This document shows, piece by piece, positions 6,671 through 13,252 of a stretch of DNA of 24,996 bases (position 1 is the stretch's first letter; each line of letters opens with the position of its first letter). Under the pieces are notes generated by a model. The model did no database searches. It saw nothing but the letters and a program-made list of their open reading frames with translations, and was not told where the DNA came from. Both the position numbers and the translations under genes were made by a program. The stretch is from a virus, in the IMG/VR virus record IMGVR_UViG_3300025301_000104, positions 1 through 24,996 of that record; one strand, given 5' to 3'.

Positions 6671-7057
6671 ATGAGTAATGACCCATCAGGAAGATTCGGC
6701 GGAGACATGGATAGAAATGAGGTAGAAATAGACCTTAATAAATTCATGGCATTATTACAAGAAAAAGCAGACCTTAAAGATAGAATTAGGGAATTGGAAG
6801 ATGAAGGCACTAAAAACCCTCATCAACGATGGATATTCTTAGCGCAAGCCGTGGATAGTTGGCGCATATTTCCAAGAGCTTTCTTAACTGTTTATATAGT
6901 TTTGCTTTATTACACAGTGATGTGGTTCATGGAACTAGAAGCACCTTCATTTGAGCAGTCAGGTTTAATCTCAGTTATTGTAGGTGCAGGAGCCGCCTGG
7001 TTTGGACTCTATGCAGGAACCTCAGGTGCATCTAAGAAATTTAAAGGCGAAGATTAA
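6671..7057 (+). CDS. Two-transmembrane protein, holin candidate
   Basis: A strong GGAGG lies at 6659-6663. The 128-residue protein has a soluble, charged N-terminus with a short coiled coil (residues about 22-45). A WRIFPRAF motif is followed by two hydrophobic segments, about 71-87 and 97-115, the second containing VGAGAAWFGLYAG. The short basic tail is KKFK. Similar proteins occur in lysis regions of marine phages and are usually unannotated or called holin-like. Its position right after the spanin pair supports a membrane role at lysis, but a holin function is inference. Confidence 0.6.
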   Translation: MSNDPSGRFGGDMDRNEVEIDLNKFMALLQEKADLKDRIRELEDEGTKNPHQRWIFLAQAVDSWRIFPRAFLTVYIVLLYYTVMWFMELEAPSFEQSGLISVIVGAGAAWFGLYAGTSGASKKFKGED

Positions 7058-7059
7058 AA

Positions 7060-7341
7060 ATGAAAGAAGTCTTTGGGTTAATTGGAGACGTAGGGTTTCC
7101 TATCGCCATAACTTTAGTCTGTGGTTTCTTTATTTTCTTAACTATCAAATACATACTAGAAAGTGTGGTTAGCCAAGTAAACGGTATCTTTGTTATAGTT
7201 CAAGGATTAGATAATAGAACTAAAACCATGAGTCATGATCTCATCAGAGTAGACGCTACTATGTGTAGTGTATTAGGTATTCGCCCAGATTTAGAAAGAA
7301 TTGCAAGAGCAGATGGAAAGGAAGATGCAAGGAAAGACTGA
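7060..7341 (+). CDS. YvrJ/UviB-like one-TM protein, copy 1
   Basis: The 93-residue protein begins IGDVGFPIAITLVCGFFIFL, the GFP-then-hydrophobic pattern of the YvrJ and BhlA/UviB small membrane protein families. It continues as a charged helix (LDNRTKTMSHDLIRVD). A single membrane segment spans about residues 11-32. Members of these families are often annotated as holin-like or bacteriocin-associated. It is followed at once by a second protein of the same plan, sharing one base (TGATG). Confidence 0.6.
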   Translation: MKEVFGLIGDVGFPIAITLVCGFFIFLTIKYILESVVSQVNGIFVIVQGLDNRTKTMSHDLIRVDATMCSVLGIRPDLERIARADGKEDARKD

Positions 7342-7616
7342 TGGATATAGCACAAGCCATCAGCGATTACGGCTTCCCTATTGTTGCTACAGTGGGTCTG
7401 CTTTACATGATTTATTTTATTTGGAACTTTATAACCACCAAAATAAAGACTCGATTGGGAGAAACTCAAAAGATAGTGGTAGATTTAATAGACCGTATCA
7501 GACTCCTGGACAACGATATTATCAGACTACAACAGAAATTAGATACTGTGATAGAGTTAAAGGAAAGGATGAAATTAGATGAACAAGCGCAACAAGAAGC
7601 AAATAAAAAAACCTAA
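7341..7616 (+). CDS. YvrJ/UviB-like one-TM protein, copy 2
   Basis: This 91-residue product repeats the plan of its upstream neighbour. It has YGFPIVATVGLLYMIYFIWN as the membrane segment (residues about 10-30), then a coiled-coil helix (LLDNDIIRLQQKLDTVIELK) and a charged tail. The two look like diverged tandem duplicates. Its 3' end overlaps the CsgF-like gene by 38 nt, so it links the lysis/membrane block to the curli-like module. Confidence 0.6.
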   Translation: MDIAQAISDYGFPIVATVGLLYMIYFIWNFITTKIKTRLGETQKIVVDLIDRIRLLDNDIIRLQQKLDTVIELKERMKLDEQAQQEANKKT

Positions 7617-8121
7617 TTACAAATTATTAGGCACCTGTGTAATTATAATTTTTGCCATATTAATGGTTGGTTTATTACAAGCAGATCAATTAGTACATAA
7701 GTTTGGTAGCCCTGCATTTAACGGACAAAATCAATCCGCACATTATTTAACGATTGATGAGCAAGAAAGAACTAGACAGGAAAAGATAGCTGAAGAGATA
7801 CAAGATGTTTTAGAAGAAGCGGAACGTGAAGCAGACAATACAGTATTAGCTAAGTTTATTCGTAACCTGGAATCAAGGATCTATTCAACACTGGCGAAGG
7901 ATATTTCTGAATCATTATTTAATTACAGTGGTATACCCACAAAAGATAATCCGATAGCAGGTGAGATAAATTTAGAGGGTAACATATTAAAATGGATAAA
8001 TGACGGAACCACAATTACCTTAATCATTGAAGAATGGTTTGACGGGGTGCTTATTTCTACAACTGAAATAGTTATTCCAGTAGGAAGTTTTGGTGGCTGT
8101 TGGATTGATTGTGACGGATGA
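7579..8121 (+). CDS. csgF: CsgF-like curli assembly factor
   Basis: Start ATG at 7579 with AAGGA about 10 nt upstream. A long basic n-region (residues 1-15) precedes a hydrophobic segment (16-33) with a plausible cleavage after A35. The mature N-terminus would then be DQLVHKFGSPAFNGQNQSAH. This aligns with the start of E. coli CsgF (as I remember it, xMTFQFRNPNFGGNPNNG), the part that inserts into CsgG. The C-terminal half also follows CsgF: FIRNLESRIYSTLAK, then INLEGNILKWINDGTTITLI and EIVIPVGSF. In curli systems CsgF caps CsgG at the cell surface and couples secretion to nucleation. It is longer than the E. coli protein (180 versus ~138), with an insert before the C-terminal domain and a Cys-x3-Cys tail (CWIDC). 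It overlaps csgG by 4 nt. Confidence 0.85.
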   Translation: MNKRNKKQIKKPNYKLLGTCVIIIFAILMVGLLQADQLVHKFGSPAFNGQNQSAHYLTIDEQERTRQEKIAEEIQDVLEEAEREADNTVLAKFIRNLESRIYSTLAKDISESLFNYSGIPTKDNPIAGEINLEGNILKWINDGTTITLIIEEWFDGVLISTTEIVIPVGSFGGCWIDCDG

Positions 8122-8918
8122 AGTGGTATTTAGTTCTAGTCGTTATATTATTAAATAGTTGCGCTCCTATAGCGTTAAATCCCAAGTACGATAAATGTAA
8201 GTTCCCCTTTACTTGTGAACAGGGTCCCCAGATTGTTCCGACTTCAGCTAATCAATTATTAAACCTTCCTCCCCCTAATACTAAAGCCGTAGTTGCAGTT
8301 TATAGTTTCCCTGACTTAACAGGACAGAGAAAATCTAGTGATAACCTAGCCAGTTTTAGTACCGCCGTTACACAGGGTGCAGAACACATGCTTATACAGG
8401 CATTACGCGATGCAGGGAGGGGAAGCTGGTTTGTTGTTGTGGAAAGAACAGGCTTAGATGGTCTGACCAGAGAAAGACAACTCATTAAAAACACTAGGCA
8501 AACTTACGCAGGAGAAGGGGAAAACATACTTAAACCCTTACTTTATGCAGGAATACTATTAGAGGGGGGAATTGTCTCTTACGATACCAATCTAAGAACA
8601 GGAGGTAATGGAGCGAGGTATTTAGGTATAGGTATAAGGAATCAATACAGAGAAGATAAAGTAACGGTTATTCTTAGGGCAGTTTTGGTGCAAACAGGCG
8701 AAGTAATAATCAATATAACAGCTACAAAAACCATACTATCTACAGGTAGAGGAACTGATTTATTCAGATTCTATGAACTAGGAACGCAATTAGGAGAAGG
8801 TGAAACAGGGAGTACATTTAACGAACCTGTAGGACTGGCTACAAGAAAAGCAATAGAAGCTGCCGTCTATGGATTAGTCATAGATGGAATAGAAAAAGAG
8901 CTTTGGGATTTTAATTAG
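8118..8918 (+). CDS. csgG: CsgG-like curli secretion channel lipoprotein
   Basis: ATGA overlap with csgF. A very short signal sequence ends in LLNSC, with Cys15 as lipidation site. The body follows E. coli CsgG closely: VYSFPDLTGQRK, FSTAVTQGAEHMLIQAL, VVVERTGLDGL, then SYDTNLRTGGNGARYLGIG, KTILSTGRGTDLFRF, EGETGSTFNEP and a C-terminal DGIEKELWDF. CsgG forms a nonameric outer-membrane pore that exports unfolded curlin subunits. The constriction phenylalanine appears kept (F80 of FSTAV); the preceding Asn is Ser, and the eyelet Tyr seems replaced in a one-residue-longer loop (alignment by eye). The ~25-residue C-terminal extension of the E. coli protein is absent. Confidence 0.93.
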   Translation: MKWYLVLVVILLNSCAPIALNPKYDKCKFPFTCEQGPQIVPTSANQLLNLPPPNTKAVVAVYSFPDLTGQRKSSDNLASFSTAVTQGAEHMLIQALRDAGRGSWFVVVERTGLDGLTRERQLIKNTRQTYAGEGENILKPLLYAGILLEGGIVSYDTNLRTGGNGARYLGIGIRNQYREDKVTVILRAVLVQTGEVIINITATKTILSTGRGTDLFRFYELGTQLGEGETGSTFNEPVGLATRKAIEAAVYGLVIDGIEKELWDFN

Positions 8919-8932: not shown

Positions 8933-8954
8933 ATACTTGCATTGGAGGAATAAG

Positions 8955-9644
8955 ATGAAGAAATTTATTACTTTAATTATTCTGTTAGTTACGTCATCTA
9001 TATACGCGGGTAACAACGACATATATATTACCCAGACGGGGACAGGATTAACGCTTACGATTGACCAGATTGGTGCAACCAATAAAGTTGGTACTACTTC
9101 AGCTAGAGCTATTGTAAGTGGTACTTCTATGACTTTAGACATAGACCAAATAGGTAGCAGCAATACTCTGGCAGCGAGCATTCTACAAGGCAATAGTTCC
9201 AGTTGGACTTACAGCAATACAGGAGATAGCGGTTCAGCTACTTTTGCAGTGGGTGCAACGGGAGACGTAGCAGGATCAGATTTTGATTGGGCTTCTTCTG
9301 GTGGAGATGGAAATGTCTTAATCTTTACGCAAGGGGCAGACGCAACTGCTACATCAGGAGATCAAGACTTTGCTATTACGGGTGCTTCCAATAACCTTAA
9401 TGTTAAATGTGAGGTGATAGGTTGTACTAATGCTTGGACTATCTCAGGAAGTTCTAATGATATAGACACTGTGCAGTCAGGAGCCAATGACCATGACATT
9501 ACAGTCAATTTAACAGGTAGTTCAATGGATGTAGACATACACCAAACTGATACCACAAGCACAAATGTAGCTAATTTATTATTACAAAGTAGTGGTGGAT
9601 CAGGAAGTTCTGTTGATATTGACCAATGCGCCAGTGGCTGTTAA
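8955..9644 (+). CDS. Curlin-like (CsgA/CsgB-type) secreted repeat protein 1
   Basis: The ATG at 8955 is preferred to an upstream in-frame codon near 8937 because GGAGG lies at 8944-8948 and the resulting protein opens with a clean signal peptide (KKFITLIILLVTSSIYA, cut before GNND). The mature protein has curlin-type repeats of the form ITQTGTG..LTIDQIGATN and LDIDQIGSSN, then more degenerate Ser/Thr/Gly/Asn/Asp-rich repeats with alternating hydrophobic residues. The Gln-x-Gly-x2-Asn signature is the hallmark of the CsgA/CsgB amyloid fold. It has no obvious CsgA-like N22 secretion segment. Two cysteine pairs are present (CEVIGC and the terminal CASGC). It would be exported through CsgG (inference). 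Its 3' end overlaps the FecR gene by 19 nt. Confidence 0.78.
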   Translation: MKKFITLIILLVTSSIYAGNNDIYITQTGTGLTLTIDQIGATNKVGTTSARAIVSGTSMTLDIDQIGSSNTLAASILQGNSSSWTYSNTGDSGSATFAVGATGDVAGSDFDWASSGGDGNVLIFTQGADATATSGDQDFAITGASNNLNVKCEVIGCTNAWTISGSSNDIDTVQSGANDHDITVNLTGSSMDVDIHQTDTTSTNVANLLLQSSGGSGSSVDIDQCASGC

Positions 9645-10708
9645 TACTTTTATTTGCTACTAATGCCTACTCCGAGATAGGAGAAATATCAGAACTTAGG
9701 GGTAATGGAGAAATCCTAAGACAAACAGGGGGAGACAAACTTCTTGCAGAACTCGCTTTGGACATTCTTTCTTATGATAGCGTGTTTACTGGTAATGGGC
9801 GCATCGCTATACAATTTGTTGATGCGTCTATTATAAAGCTGACAGAGCATTCTAAGATCGTTATAGACGAATACATATACGACCCCGACCCAACTAAAAG
9901 TAAGTTAGCTTTAAACATGGCGAGCGGGACGGCTCGTTTTATAACAGGTGCACTAGGAAAGATAGATAAAAGAAACATTTCTATTCGCACTCCATCCGCC
10001 AACATCGCTATTCGTGGAACTGATTTCACTACCACTGTAGATGAATTGGGAAGATCTTTAGTTATTTTATTGCCCGATGCAGACGGGACCACCTCTGGAG
10101 AAATAGCAGTAGAAACATGGTCAGGAACAGAGATACTTAATAGACCTTTTCAAGCTACGATGGTTTCTACCTTTGAATCACAGCCTACTAGAGCAGTTGT
10201 TTTAGGTAATCTTACATTAGGTTTAATAGATAATATGCTAATTGTTAGTCAACCCCCAGAGGTAGTAGAAGCAGTAGAAGAACAACAAGCAGATTCTAAA
10301 ACAGAACTTGACAAAGACTTCTTTGAAGAAGGAAACGATTTAGAGAAAGACTACTTAGAGGAAGAGGAAGAAATCTCTAGACTAGATATAGACTTATTAA
10401 GCTTTGATTTTCTAGTGGATTTATTAGCCATAGTGGAAACAGGTTCTAGAAAGAAAACTGAATCAGGGGGAGAACTAGACGGGATTGAATTAATGGGGCT
10501 TGTTCCAGGATTTGATCCAGTGTATCAAACATACTCTTTTGTAGAGGGGGAATACTTATACTTAGTTCATCACGGCAGCAATACATTTGATATTGCGTTA
10601 GATAAATACGCAGCAACTTATTTAAATATAAATACGGCTGGTGTTATAATGGAGATAGAGGTAAATGGTGCGGGCGACAATACTATTATTATTTTTCAGT
10701 CTCCTTAG
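9626..10708 (+). CDS. FecR-domain exported protein
   Basis: A 16-residue signal peptide (MRQWLLILLFATNAYS) is followed by a FecR domain (about 48-150) with its usual core GTARFITGALGKID and ISIRTPSANIAIRGTDF. FecR domains are periplasmic or extracytoplasmic sensor/scaffold modules; outside iron signalling they often occur in exported proteins of unknown role. No sigma/anti-sigma partner or N-terminal cytoplasmic part is visible, so this is not a classical FecR regulator. Residues about 212-250 are very acidic (EEEEE). The C-terminal ~50 residues (FDIALDKYAATYLNINTAG, then VNGAGDNTIIIF) have strand-like N/G/D spacing reminiscent of a curlin repeat. It overlaps curlin-like gene 1 by 19 nt and curlin-like gene 2 by 44 nt, so the three are probably made together. 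Confidence 0.82.
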   Translation: MRQWLLILLFATNAYSEIGEISELRGNGEILRQTGGDKLLAELALDILSYDSVFTGNGRIAIQFVDASIIKLTEHSKIVIDEYIYDPDPTKSKLALNMASGTARFITGALGKIDKRNISIRTPSANIAIRGTDFTTTVDELGRSLVILLPDADGTTSGEIAVETWSGTEILNRPFQATMVSTFESQPTRAVVLGNLTLGLIDNMLIVSQPPEVVEAVEEQQADSKTELDKDFFEEGNDLEKDYLEEEEEISRLDIDLLSFDFLVDLLAIVETGSRKKTESGGELDGIELMGLVPGFDPVYQTYSFVEGEYLYLVHHGSNTFDIALDKYAATYLNINTAGVIMEIEVNGAGDNTIIIFQSP

Positions 10709-11468
10709 TGGTAGTCTGTTAGCGGGGGATAATGTGATAACCCTGCAAACGAAAGGCAGTGGTTCAACCATAACGATTAAACAGGCGGGCAACAGCAACA
10801 CTACAGGAGTCTATTGTGGCTTGGGTAGTTTTGATAATTCTTTATTAAACACGCATACTTGCGACAACGCCACTATTACCGCCAATGTGACAGGCAACTC
10901 CAACATTGTTTATTCACAGTCTGTTTGGTCTAACCATACGGGGCAAAGTTGGATAACCACTGTTGACGGCAACGATAACTACGCCGTTATAGATATGGAC
11001 GAAGACGACAACACCTCTAGAATTACACAAACAGGCGATGATAATCAAGCGTGGATATTGGGTTCGGGCGATGACAACGTATATAAAATAGAACAGCTAG
11101 GCGATGATTACTACGCCAAAATCTATGCGTTTGGAGATGATGCCGATACTTGGATAACCCAAGAGGGTACGGGGGACCATAACGCTTACGTGCTTAATTA
11201 TCCAGGGGGTGATAATAATTCAACCAGACTAATCCAGAAAGGTTCAGGCAATAAAGACGCAGACATATTCTTTTACAGTGGAGCTGATGACAATGACGTT
11301 ACTTTAACGCAACAAGGGAACGGAGCGCACGGTTCAAATATGAAGTTCTATACAGATGATTACGATGTAACGGTGGTTCAAAAGGGTGCCACTAATAAAT
11401 CCTATATTGCTACGTTTAATTGCAGTAGTAATTGCGATAAAACCATAACCATAATGCAACAAGATTGA
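10665..11468 (+). CDS. Curlin-like secreted repeat protein 2, acidic
   Basis: A signal peptide of about 20 residues (ending SLLSGSLLA) precedes 247 residues of curlin-type repeats of about 20-24 residues. They carry Gln-x-Gly and Gly-x-x-Asn positions (IKQAGNSN, ITQTGDDNQAWI, IEQLGDDYY, ITQEGTGDHNAYV, LIQKGSGNKDADI, LTQQGNGAHGS, VVQKGATNKSYI). Many repeats have Asp-Asp at the turn (GDDN, GDDA, GADDND), making the protein much more acidic than typical CsgA. There is an early cysteine pair near residues 51-66 and a late pair (FNCSSNC). It is a plausible second fibre subunit or nucleator. It overlaps the cyclase start by 4 nt. Confidence 0.8.
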   Translation: MVRATILLLFFSLLSGSLLAGDNVITLQTKGSGSTITIKQAGNSNTTGVYCGLGSFDNSLLNTHTCDNATITANVTGNSNIVYSQSVWSNHTGQSWITTVDGNDNYAVIDMDEDDNTSRITQTGDDNQAWILGSGDDNVYKIEQLGDDYYAKIYAFGDDADTWITQEGTGDHNAYVLNYPGGDNNSTRLIQKGSGNKDADIFFYSGADDNDVTLTQQGNGAHGSNMKFYTDDYDVTVVQKGATNKSYIATFNCSSNCDKTITIMQQD

Positions 11469-13252
11469 TAAAGAAAAGTCTTCCTTTACTGTTACTGTTG
11501 GGTGTTCTAGGAACACCTTTACTATTTCAAGTAGTTCCTTTAGAAATTATAAAGCTCAAAGTTTTTGACGCTTATGTGCCTGAGAAGGAACCCTCAGGTT
11601 ATTTCTCTATCCTTAATATAACTGAAGAGGACATTGCACGTGAAGGCGGCTACCCTCTACCTAGACAACGGTTAGCGGAAATACAGGTTGACTTATTAAA
11701 CAATGGAGCGATTGGAGTTGGCTGGGTTATGGCTTTCCCACAGCCCGATAGGCTTGGTGGAGATCCCGTATTTGCAGAGACACTAGCCTATGCCCCCAGC
11801 GTCTTGGCGATGTTTGAAAACGATAGCGGAGACTACCCACCGACCACAGGCACGGTCATTATGGGAGAAGACCGTGGAGGAATAGACGCAGAAGGAGTTG
11901 TTCAAAACATTGATATGCTTAAACAGAACGCCAATCAAGGGATTGCTGTCGCTAGAACAGAGGTGGATTCTTTAGTAAGGCGTTTACCTTTATTACTAAG
12001 AACCCCTGATGGGTGGGTTCCTGCTTACGGCACGGAAGTATTAAAAATACTAGCGGGGGCTGACACTTATTTAATTAAAACCAATGAAAACGGTGTAGAA
12101 GAAATACGGGTGAGGGGCTTAAACCCCGTGCCTGTTGATTCATTAGGGCGTAAGTGGATCAGTTGGGTCGATACACCGCAAACAGACCTACAGGAAATGC
12201 AGGTCAAAGATAAGTTTGTCTTTGTAGGCTTTACGGCTAAAGGCATAATGCCTCAATTAGCCACCCCTGCTGCTTTAATGGAACCTCACAAAATACAAGC
12301 GGCACTGGCAGAAAGTATCTTAATCGAAGGGAGTCCTTACGTCCCTGACTATGCCCTAGCCTTAGAGTTGGGTATTTTTACCCTCTCAGTGCTGTTTATT
12401 TGGCTCCTACTGCACGTTTTTGGGATTACGTGGGGGGTAGTCTTATTTATGGCTACTATGGCGTCTACGGCGTTTTACGGCTATTGGACAATTCAACAGG
12501 GGTTATTAATCGACGTAACGTGGGCTTTAATCTCTCAATTTATAACGGGTGCTACGGCTTTTTACTTACGCTTTAGAGAACAATACAAGTTACGACAGCA
12601 AATTAAGAAGCAGTTTGAACACTATTTAGACCCTCGTCAAGTAAAAAGATTACAAGATAACCCTGACCTTTTAGCTTTAACAGGGGAGCGTAAGTACGCA
12701 ACCTTCTTATTCACTGACGTGAGAGGGTTTACTTCCATGTCAGAAAAGCTAGACCCTACGGAAGTAACTGAAATTATTAACGTCGTACTAACCCAGCAAG
12801 TAGAGGCAGTACAAAAGTACGGGGGCATGGTAGATAAGTTTATTGGGGATGCGATGATGGCGGTGTTTAATGCGCCCTTGGACCAGGAGCATCATGAAGA
12901 AGAGGCAATTAACGCGGGTATACAAATCATCCATAATATGCAAAAAGCGAATGAAGAATTAGAACGGAGGGGAATTGAAGAACGAATTAAAATTGGGATT
13001 GGAATTAACTCTGGTTACGCGGTAATTGGGAACATGGGTAGTGATACACGGTTTGATTATTCTTGCATCGGGGACAGTGTAAATCTCGCCGCCCGCCTTG
13101 AATCTAGTACCAAGACCGTGGGGAAAGATTTACTAATTGGGGAATCTACAAAAGAACGCTCAAAACGTAGCTTAATTAAGTTAGAACCCATAGAAGTAAA
13201 AGGGAAAGAAAAGTTAATTAATCTATACACAATTAATGATTCTGCAGTATAA
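11465..13252 (+). CDS. CHASE2-domain class III adenylate cyclase (membrane receptor type)
   Basis: Start is a TTG at 11465 in a TTGA overlap; the next in-frame Met is at residue 90, inside the sensor domain. Order: signal-anchor helix (about 5-25), CHASE2 extracytoplasmic sensor (about 28-290), three membrane helices (about 297-318, 320-343, 346-367), a linker helix (FEHYLDPRQVKRL) and the cyclase domain (about 405-590). Catalytic residues look complete: metal ligands D418 (FTDVRGFT) and D462 (FIGDAMMAVF), substrate Lys K458, S533 where Thr/Asp is usual, and N540 and R544 (VNLAARLE). The Lys favours ATP over GTP, so cAMP is the likely product. In bacteria CHASE2 cyclases sense periplasmic signals and are often beside FecR-domain genes, as I recall. 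Finding one with curlin genes in a phage genome is unusual. Confidence 0.92.
   Translation: MIKKSLPLLLLLGVLGTPLLFQVVPLEIIKLKVFDAYVPEKEPSGYFSILNITEEDIAREGGYPLPRQRLAEIQVDLLNNGAIGVGWVMAFPQPDRLGGDPVFAETLAYAPSVLAMFENDSGDYPPTTGTVIMGEDRGGIDAEGVVQNIDMLKQNANQGIAVARTEVDSLVRRLPLLLRTPDGWVPAYGTEVLKILAGADTYLIKTNENGVEEIRVRGLNPVPVDSLGRKWISWVDTPQTDLQEMQVKDKFVFVGFTAKGIMPQLATPAALMEPHKIQAALAESILIEGSPYVPDYALALELGIFTLSVLFIWLLLHVFGITWGVVLFMATMASTAFYGYWTIQQGLLIDVTWALISQFITGATAFYLRFREQYKLRQQIKKQFEHYLDPRQVKRLQDNPDLLALTGERKYATFLFTDVRGFTSMSEKLDPTEVTEIINVVLTQQVEAVQKYGGMVDKFIGDAMMAVFNAPLDQEHHEEEAINAGIQIIHNMQKANEELERRGIEERIKIGIGINSGYAVIGNMGSDTRFDYSCIGDSVNLAARLESSTKTVGKDLLIGESTKERSKRSLIKLEPIEVKGKEKLINLYTINDSAV

Follow-up and report, generated by a model that had tools for sequence, protein, structure and literature searches.

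Introduction

What would a membrane receptor cyclase do in a phage genome? The question is raised by a 595-residue protein encoded in the 24,996-base IMG/VR virus record of a marine phage (IMGVR_UViG_3300025301_000104), which was analysed over its whole length (hereafter the window) and is possibly a genome fragment. A first-pass annotation of the DNA had described a phage-encoded CHASE2 adenylate cyclase of the receptor type. That part holds; what it overlooked is that the gene belongs to a curli (surface amyloid; type VIII secretion system, T8SS) operon, and this operon frames the function of the cyclase. The best reading of the locus is a working envelope-sensing adenylate cyclase.

The cyclase and its active site

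The reading frame has no internal stop. It begins with a TTG codon, which overlaps the stop of the gene before it and lines up with the start codons in relatives. Two Pfam domains score over their cut-offs, CHASE2 at residues 22-313 (E 1.4e-22) and Guanylate_cyc at residues 412-585 (E 2.9e-21). With this domain, both metal aspartates, the substrate lysine and the Asn/Arg pair all present, the protein is a class III nucleotide cyclase (PF00211). Profiles, hydropathy and a structural model agree on the plan of an envelope-facing CHASE2 receptor cyclase, as had been annotated: an N-terminal transmembrane helix, CHASE2, three transmembrane segments and the cyclase domain. There is a single N-terminal membrane helix, two hydrophobic peaks lie at 298-336, and the third helical segment (352-384), which falls under the hydropathy threshold used, is taken from the AlphaFold2 model. 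From the predicted topology, CHASE2 would be periplasmic and the cyclase domain cytosolic.

The AlphaFold2 model has a mean pLDDT of 88.9, and its top match among solved structures is 6fht (E 5e-18). The modelled catalytic domain reaches TM-scores (by target) of 0.86-0.89 with the solved class III adenylate cyclases 1wc1 and 3r5g, and the full-length architecture is matched by one predicted viral protein annotated COG4252. The protein is complete relative to its podophage relatives and is without a further C-terminal tail of about 90 residues found in the cellular and Melnitz forms. This tail ends in W[DN]GV[FY]..-TK in Melnitz (L083, 7917-9968) and in two cellular loci (L089, 9881-11956; L093, 9953-12019), and it is absent from podophage and HTVC008M forms.

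The roles of the metal aspartates, the purine lysine and the transition-state Asn and Arg are established for class III cyclases. In an alignment with Pseudomonas aeruginosa CyaB (3r5g), Spirulina CyaC (1wc0) and Cya2 (2w01), D418 and D462 fall on the metal aspartates, K458 on the purine lysine, and N540 and R544 on the transition-state pair; no metal or transition-state residue has been lost, and the intact active site of the first-pass annotation is borne out. The guanylyl cyclase Cya2 has Glu where the window cyclase has its lysine. Among 175 viral relatives of at least 500 aa, D418, K458 and D462 are kept in every sequence (175/175), and N540 and R544 are absent only at contig ends, apart from N540 in Melnitz. 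In the Melnitz cyclase this transition-state Asn is replaced by Ser, and the enzyme may, judging from the substitution, be impaired.

Lys458 and Ser533 occupy the positions of the purine pair (Lys plus Thr/Asp/Ser). The serine had been singled out as a departure that could affect substrate choice. It is the commonest residue at this position in the same viral set (101 Ser, 72 Thr, 1 Asp, 1 gap; n = 175) and is common in cellular CHASE2 cyclases too, which rules it out as a special feature. Purifying selection on the viral catalytic domain is strong: over 447 pairs, which are not phylogenetically independent, the median Nei-Gojobori dN/dS is 0.056 for the catalytic domain and 0.13 for the sensor. 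The cyclase gene is real and intact, and it is probably functional.

The curli operon and its phage setting

Table 1. Positions and supporting evidence for the features of the operon in the window
Feature	Position	Strand	Evidence and remarks
Small membrane protein (phrog_10198)	6671..7057	+	Left edge of shared block; PHROGs
Small one-TM and coiled-coil protein (phrog_18771), 93 or 91 aa	7060..7341	+	Paralogue of 7341..7616
Small one-TM and coiled-coil protein (phrog_18771), 93 or 91 aa	7341..7616	+	Paralogue of neighbour 7060..7341
CsgF curli chaperone/channel partner	7579..8121	+	Pfam CsgF E 2.1e-7
CsgG outer-membrane curli secretion channel (lipoprotein)	8118..8918	+	Pfam CsgG E 1.2e-55
Curlin-repeat protein, first	8937..9644	+	Weak: Pfam Curlin_rpt E 0.0066, NCBIfam CsgB E 0.0028
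Periplasmic FecR-domain protein, 360 aa	9626..10708	+	Pfam FecR E 3.4e-11; alignment; model
Curlin-repeat protein, second, CsgA/B-like	10665..11468	+	Pfam Curlin_rpt E 2.5e-12; signal-peptide-like N-terminus
CHASE2 receptor adenylate cyclase	11465..13252	+	Sensor ~25-290, transmembrane 291-375, linker 376-406, catalytic 407-590
Recurrent recombination boundary in cyclase gene	12606..12666	+	Linker/catalytic junction, residues ~380-400

Two small membrane proteins precede csgF, csgG, a curlin-repeat gene, a FecR-domain gene, a second curlin-repeat gene and, in last place, the cyclase (Table 1). The genes upstream of the cyclase overlap or nearly adjoin each other, and csgF, csgG, curlin repeats, FecR and cyclase are contiguous in a phage genome, as in the phage T8SS/curli module. 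For the first curlin-repeat gene, both profile matches lie below cut-off and the assignment comes from its position and from homology in relatives; the second also matches NCBIfam CsgA (E 9.7e-15), below the cut-off of that model. The two paralogous phrog_18771 genes probably correspond to the 'histidine kinase' that published descriptions place ahead of csgF, a doubtful name, as Pfam, PHROGs and NCBIfam searches found no kinase domain in either. The pair, which shows weak holin-like similarity, has an equivalent in HTVC008M (L082, 2845-3407).

Flanking the curli module are genes for a virion stabilization protein, a lysozyme, an ejection-protein homologue and an SNF2 helicase. Virion genes thus lie to the left and right of the cyclase in a whole virus record, which makes it phage-encoded, as first claimed. 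The stabilization protein is 33-36% and the helicase 45% identical to that of HTVC023P; the window shows distant similarity to HTVC023P and DSL-LC04 only, and a megablast search against GenBank phages gave no match. No tRNA and no Rfam match were found in the window, and a promoter/terminator scan stayed near shuffled expectation. DNA similarity to six related loci (L281, L286, L287, L288, L290 and L291) begins at 6687-6692, at the start of the first gene in Table 1, and suggests a transferable block spanning 6690 to about 12630.

Viral relatives and the putative donor

Receptor cyclases of this type had been thought to be rarely reported in viruses, a view that does not survive a wider search. 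At least 593 IMG/VR stretches carry relatives of the cyclase, and a further scan, queried with the protein of HTVC008M, gave at least 585, a set that may overlap with the first. Two GenBank phages, HTVC008M and Melnitz, already have such a cyclase in their annotation. In 2022, Wittmers et al. described adenylate cyclase as belonging to the curli modules of pelagiphages, both HTVC023P-type podophages and pelagimyophages including HTVC008M (PMC9599517). csgF and csgG have also been reported in pelagimyophages (PMC7029224) and in Melnitz (PMC9004378). The window cyclase is of a kind already described. Much of its layout is common to the 80 viral contigs compared with the window, and the protein is 64-72% identical to the viral copies compared versus 35-36% to cellular copies with a curli operon. 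One relative, L085, carries between FecR and cyclase a gene (1694-2857) that resembles, by eye, a cytosine-C5 DNA methyltransferase. The 1.5-kb GenBank entry OR851715.1, named Salmonella phage S.Kent 1-2-1, encodes CsgG and is possibly a host DNA fragment.

A GTDB scan for cyclase relatives gave ten loci. Several, e.g., L084, L086, L088 and L091, which carry phage-type small genes, look like phage contigs binned in metagenome-assembled genomes (MAGs). The phage order csgF-csgG-curlin-FecR-CHASE2/AC (adenylate cyclase) also occurs in Hyphomonas sp. TMED17 (L089, whose 705-kb contig also holds ordinary metabolic genes and one resembling a TonB receptor) and in two Caulobacteraceae MAG contigs (L087, L093), and these three look cellular. 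Phylogeny had been proposed as the way to the donor lineage: in a sensor tree made by a quick method, the three cellular and all phage CHASE2 domains form one clade with a support of 99, separate from other CHASE2 proteins of the order. The operon of Hyphomonas and Caulobacteraceae is a putative donor type, and the source was probably alphaproteobacterial.

A cyclase is absent from 34 other alphaproteobacterial csgG loci within the DNA examined per locus. This rules out the enzyme as a general component of alphaproteobacterial curli operons (0/34), and the cyclase-bearing operon thus represents a rare sublineage. According to the abstract of the pelagiphage study, FecR, histidine kinase and adenylate cyclase are not within bacterial T8SS operons (PMC9599517). 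FecR and adenylate cyclase do occur in the curli operons of Hyphomonas and Caulobacteraceae, which refines that statement as the abstract words it.

Exchange of the catalytic domain

The loci closest to the window by CsgG (L282, L284 and L285; 94-96%) match its DNA at 82-84% identity up to the boundary listed in Table 1, where the alignment ends. Their sensors are 77-92% identical to that of the window, their catalytic domains only 42-49%. One catalytic type is common to L282, L285, L291 and L054, and that of L284 is of the myophage (HTVC008M) type. In a careful sensor tree, the window, L054, L282, L284 and L291 form one clade (100/99); the catalytic domain rejects this grouping, which was picked after the identities were seen (AU p 1.6e-41). 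L284 goes with the myophages by its catalytic domain (100/97), a placement rejected for its sensor (p 4e-5). Across 54 loci, pairwise identities correlate at 0.97 between CsgG and FecR and at 0.21 between sensor and catalytic domain. Breakpoints, conflicting trees and the weak sensor-catalytic correlation make the cyclase gene a recombination hot spot, whose catalytic half is repeatedly swapped between phages behind a conserved sensor. A PDB search with an arbitrary stretch of L284 gave no match and was not used.

The exchange may have no functional meaning and simply mark the right edge of the exchanged T8SS block, through homologous recombination at a conserved linker. The linker QQIKKQFEHYLDP is strongly conserved across relatives and the genes downstream of the cyclase differ among relatives as well, but at least three catalytic types, one of them myophage-type, stand behind similar sensors, which implies more than one event. 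We regard the matter as evenly balanced, so that neutral mosaicism stays in contention; it concerns the exchange only and is compatible with the best explanation of what the cyclase does.

FecR and a proposed mechanism

The FecR-domain protein has a signal-peptide-like N-terminus, and no anti-sigma N-terminal domain was found in it. With such a start and a periplasmic FecR domain only, a role as an iron-citrate anti-sigma regulator is unsupported. Its model is confident in the FecR domain only, with low confidence elsewhere. At its C-terminus (residues ~345-360) lies a curlin-repeat-like strand, N-x-x-I-I-x-Q (e.g., NTIIIFQSP), below profile thresholds. The strand is conserved in phage and Caulobacteraceae (L093) copies and suggests a contact with curlin.

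In 7 of about 49 loci (four of them Pfam-confirmed), FecR also stands beside CHASE2 in the absence of curli; such unrelated loci have a cyclase or a kinase as output. In a Burkholderia biofilm operon, a FecR-domain gene adjoins a CHASE2 receptor (PMC5192318). A FecR-domain gene likewise adjoins cyaD1 of Sinorhizobium meliloti, whose product gives constitutive cAMP when CHASE2 is removed; there the FecR-domain gene is dispensable for signal perception (PMC5498481), which counts against FecR as the input. Sensor and FecR identities correlate only weakly (r 0.51 vs 0.97 for CsgG and FecR), and coevolution of the two is not claimed.

The explanation we favour, and consider reasonably probable as a whole, is that of a phage curli module with an envelope-sensing CHASE2 cyclase making cAMP. 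A type VIII secretion module would have been acquired by the phage from an alphaproteobacterium, with the cyclase as its output component. CsgF, CsgG, both curlin-repeat proteins and the FecR-domain protein would be exported, and the cyclase would span the inner membrane and expose CHASE2 to the periplasm. A periplasmic change tied to the curli/FecR components or the envelope would lift the restraint imposed by CHASE2, and the homodimeric class III domain would then convert ATP to cAMP. By homology with characterized relatives, cAMP is the presumed product, sensing is presumably periplasmic and control by CHASE2 presumably negative. FecR would be the leading ligand candidate; the likeliest input is FecR or the state of the curli channel, and the likeliest output cAMP.

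Cyclic-nucleotide receptors in SAR11-family genomes

Receptors with a cNMP_binding domain were sought in 147 genomes of one family, to which the MAG titled Candidatus Pelagibacter sp. MED605 belongs; the listed genomes measure 0.8-1.6 Mb and the loci have 28-32% GC, which fits SAR11. The domain was found in 9 of the 147, mostly as weak matches, with more than 50 bits in 3 only. Class III cyclases occur in three genomes, one below cut-off and two on phage contigs, so that native cyclases of this family are rejected for both over-cut-off cases: one cyclase neighbours genes for a polynucleotide kinase and a terminase small subunit, and the contig of the second carries phage-type module genes. Genome completeness is unreported, and the near-absence is therefore a statistical one. 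No cNMP-binding domain was found in the window, HTVC008M, Melnitz or the other viral records searched, and the Hyphomonas and Caulobacteraceae carriers encode 4 to 7. If the host is a SAR11 bacterium, the canonical cAMP route is thus missing; the scarcity bears on the phage group and not on this genome. A 14.6-kb contig in a SAR11-family genome (L302) combines a terminase small subunit with a deeply branching T8SS cyclase module; as a phage contig, it weakly hints at a SAR11-family host.

Alternative readings

The scarcity of cAMP receptors raises the possibility that the product is not cAMP, but cGMP or cUMP/cCMP, which could serve, e.g., to set off, jam or imitate a Pycsar-type pathway in competing phage-host interactions. 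The catalytic domain does match the PADLOC models of Pycsar cyclases (PycC; best E 7e-28), and Ser533 stands where CyaB has Thr. Yet the Pycsar layout, in which a cyclic-nucleotide-binding effector (PycTM or PycTIR) adjoins the cyclase, is absent from the window. A profile search of solved structures gave purine adenylate cyclases as best matches, and none of the 50 structures listed at E 1e-10 is labelled a pyrimidine cyclase. The purine lysine, invariant in the viral relatives and replaced by Glu in the guanylyl cyclase Cya2, also counts against this reading, and the base-pocket residues of PycC enzymes differ (Y50/D94/R97; F100/R142/Q144; F60/K104/F109; PMC11224242). We therefore judge another product unlikely.

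Slightly less likely still is that the cyclase is a functionless passenger, carried in with the curli operon from its alphaproteobacterial donor. In its favour are the matching gene order of the cellular operon, the lower frequency of adenylate cyclase and of a second curlin gene in Podoviridae than in Myoviridae modules according to published surveys (PMC9599517), and the near-lack of receptor domains in SAR11-family genomes. Against this stand the low catalytic-domain dN/dS (~0.06), the metal and purine residues lost in none of the 175 viral sequences, and a catalytic half that is swapped for other intact ones, not lost. That the gene is bacterial chromosome mis-sorted as viral can be set aside for practical purposes and is highly improbable. 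Alphaproteobacteria do have homologues and bacterial MAGs contain some mis-binned phage contigs, but the same record holds the HTVC023P-related stabilization protein and the other phage genes named above, hundreds of viral contigs carry relatives, and the identities and shared layout point to the viral copies. The preferred reading remains a cAMP-producing sensor of the envelope.

Significance

The same-order cellular operon, the exchange of catalytic domains and the near-missing receptor domains in the SAR11 family appear to be additional to published work. In hundreds of marine viral contigs, a curli operon closes with a membrane cyclase that strong selection maintains, and a known receptor or native cyclase is almost never encoded in the sampled genomes of the proposed hosts, the SAR11 family. 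A catalogued auxiliary gene thereby becomes a testable question, namely the role of a cyclic nucleotide in such a cell. The Hyphomonas and Caulobacteraceae operons offer a tractable setting for identifying the CHASE2 signal in curli secretion, and the domain swaps are natural chimeras for testing. A modular second-messenger circuit can be imagined, with a conserved curli/CHASE2 front end, interchangeable cyclases and an undescribed type of receptor in hosts without CRP-type receptors; we put this forward tentatively and think it rather doubtful.

Comparison with known systems

The closest known system is the pelagiphage T8SS module (PMC9599517), which shares with the window its histidine kinase-like small gene(s), csgF, csgG, csgA/B, FecR, csgA/B and adenylate cyclase in this order; the window differs in being only a distant relative of HTVC023P. 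A CHASE2 and class III cyclase closes the curli cluster, as in the window, in HTVC008M ('adenylate/guanylyl cyclase', AGE60353; 34% identity) and in the Methylophilales phage Melnitz (gp104; 30%), the latter with the longer tail and the Ser for catalytic Asn. The operons of Hyphomonas sp. TMED17 and the Caulobacteraceae MAGs have the same csgF-csgG-curlin-FecR-CHASE2/AC order, but they are cellular, their cyclases are 688-691 aa long with the extra tail, and their genomes encode cNMP-binding domains.

Pycsar PycC has the class III fold and a detectable profile similarity in common with the window cyclase, which is unlike it in having no effector partner, a purine-type lysine and a membrane receptor architecture. 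S. meliloti CyaD1 (PMC5498481), compared by its description, is likewise an adenylate cyclase of the CHASE2 receptor type that has a FecR-domain gene nearby; it lies outside a curli operon as described and acts via Clr, a CRP-family regulator missing from the phage. The Burkholderia BiofilmReg operon (PMC5192318) shares the periplasmic FecR-domain protein next to a CHASE2 receptor, whose output there is a histidine kinase instead of a cyclase.
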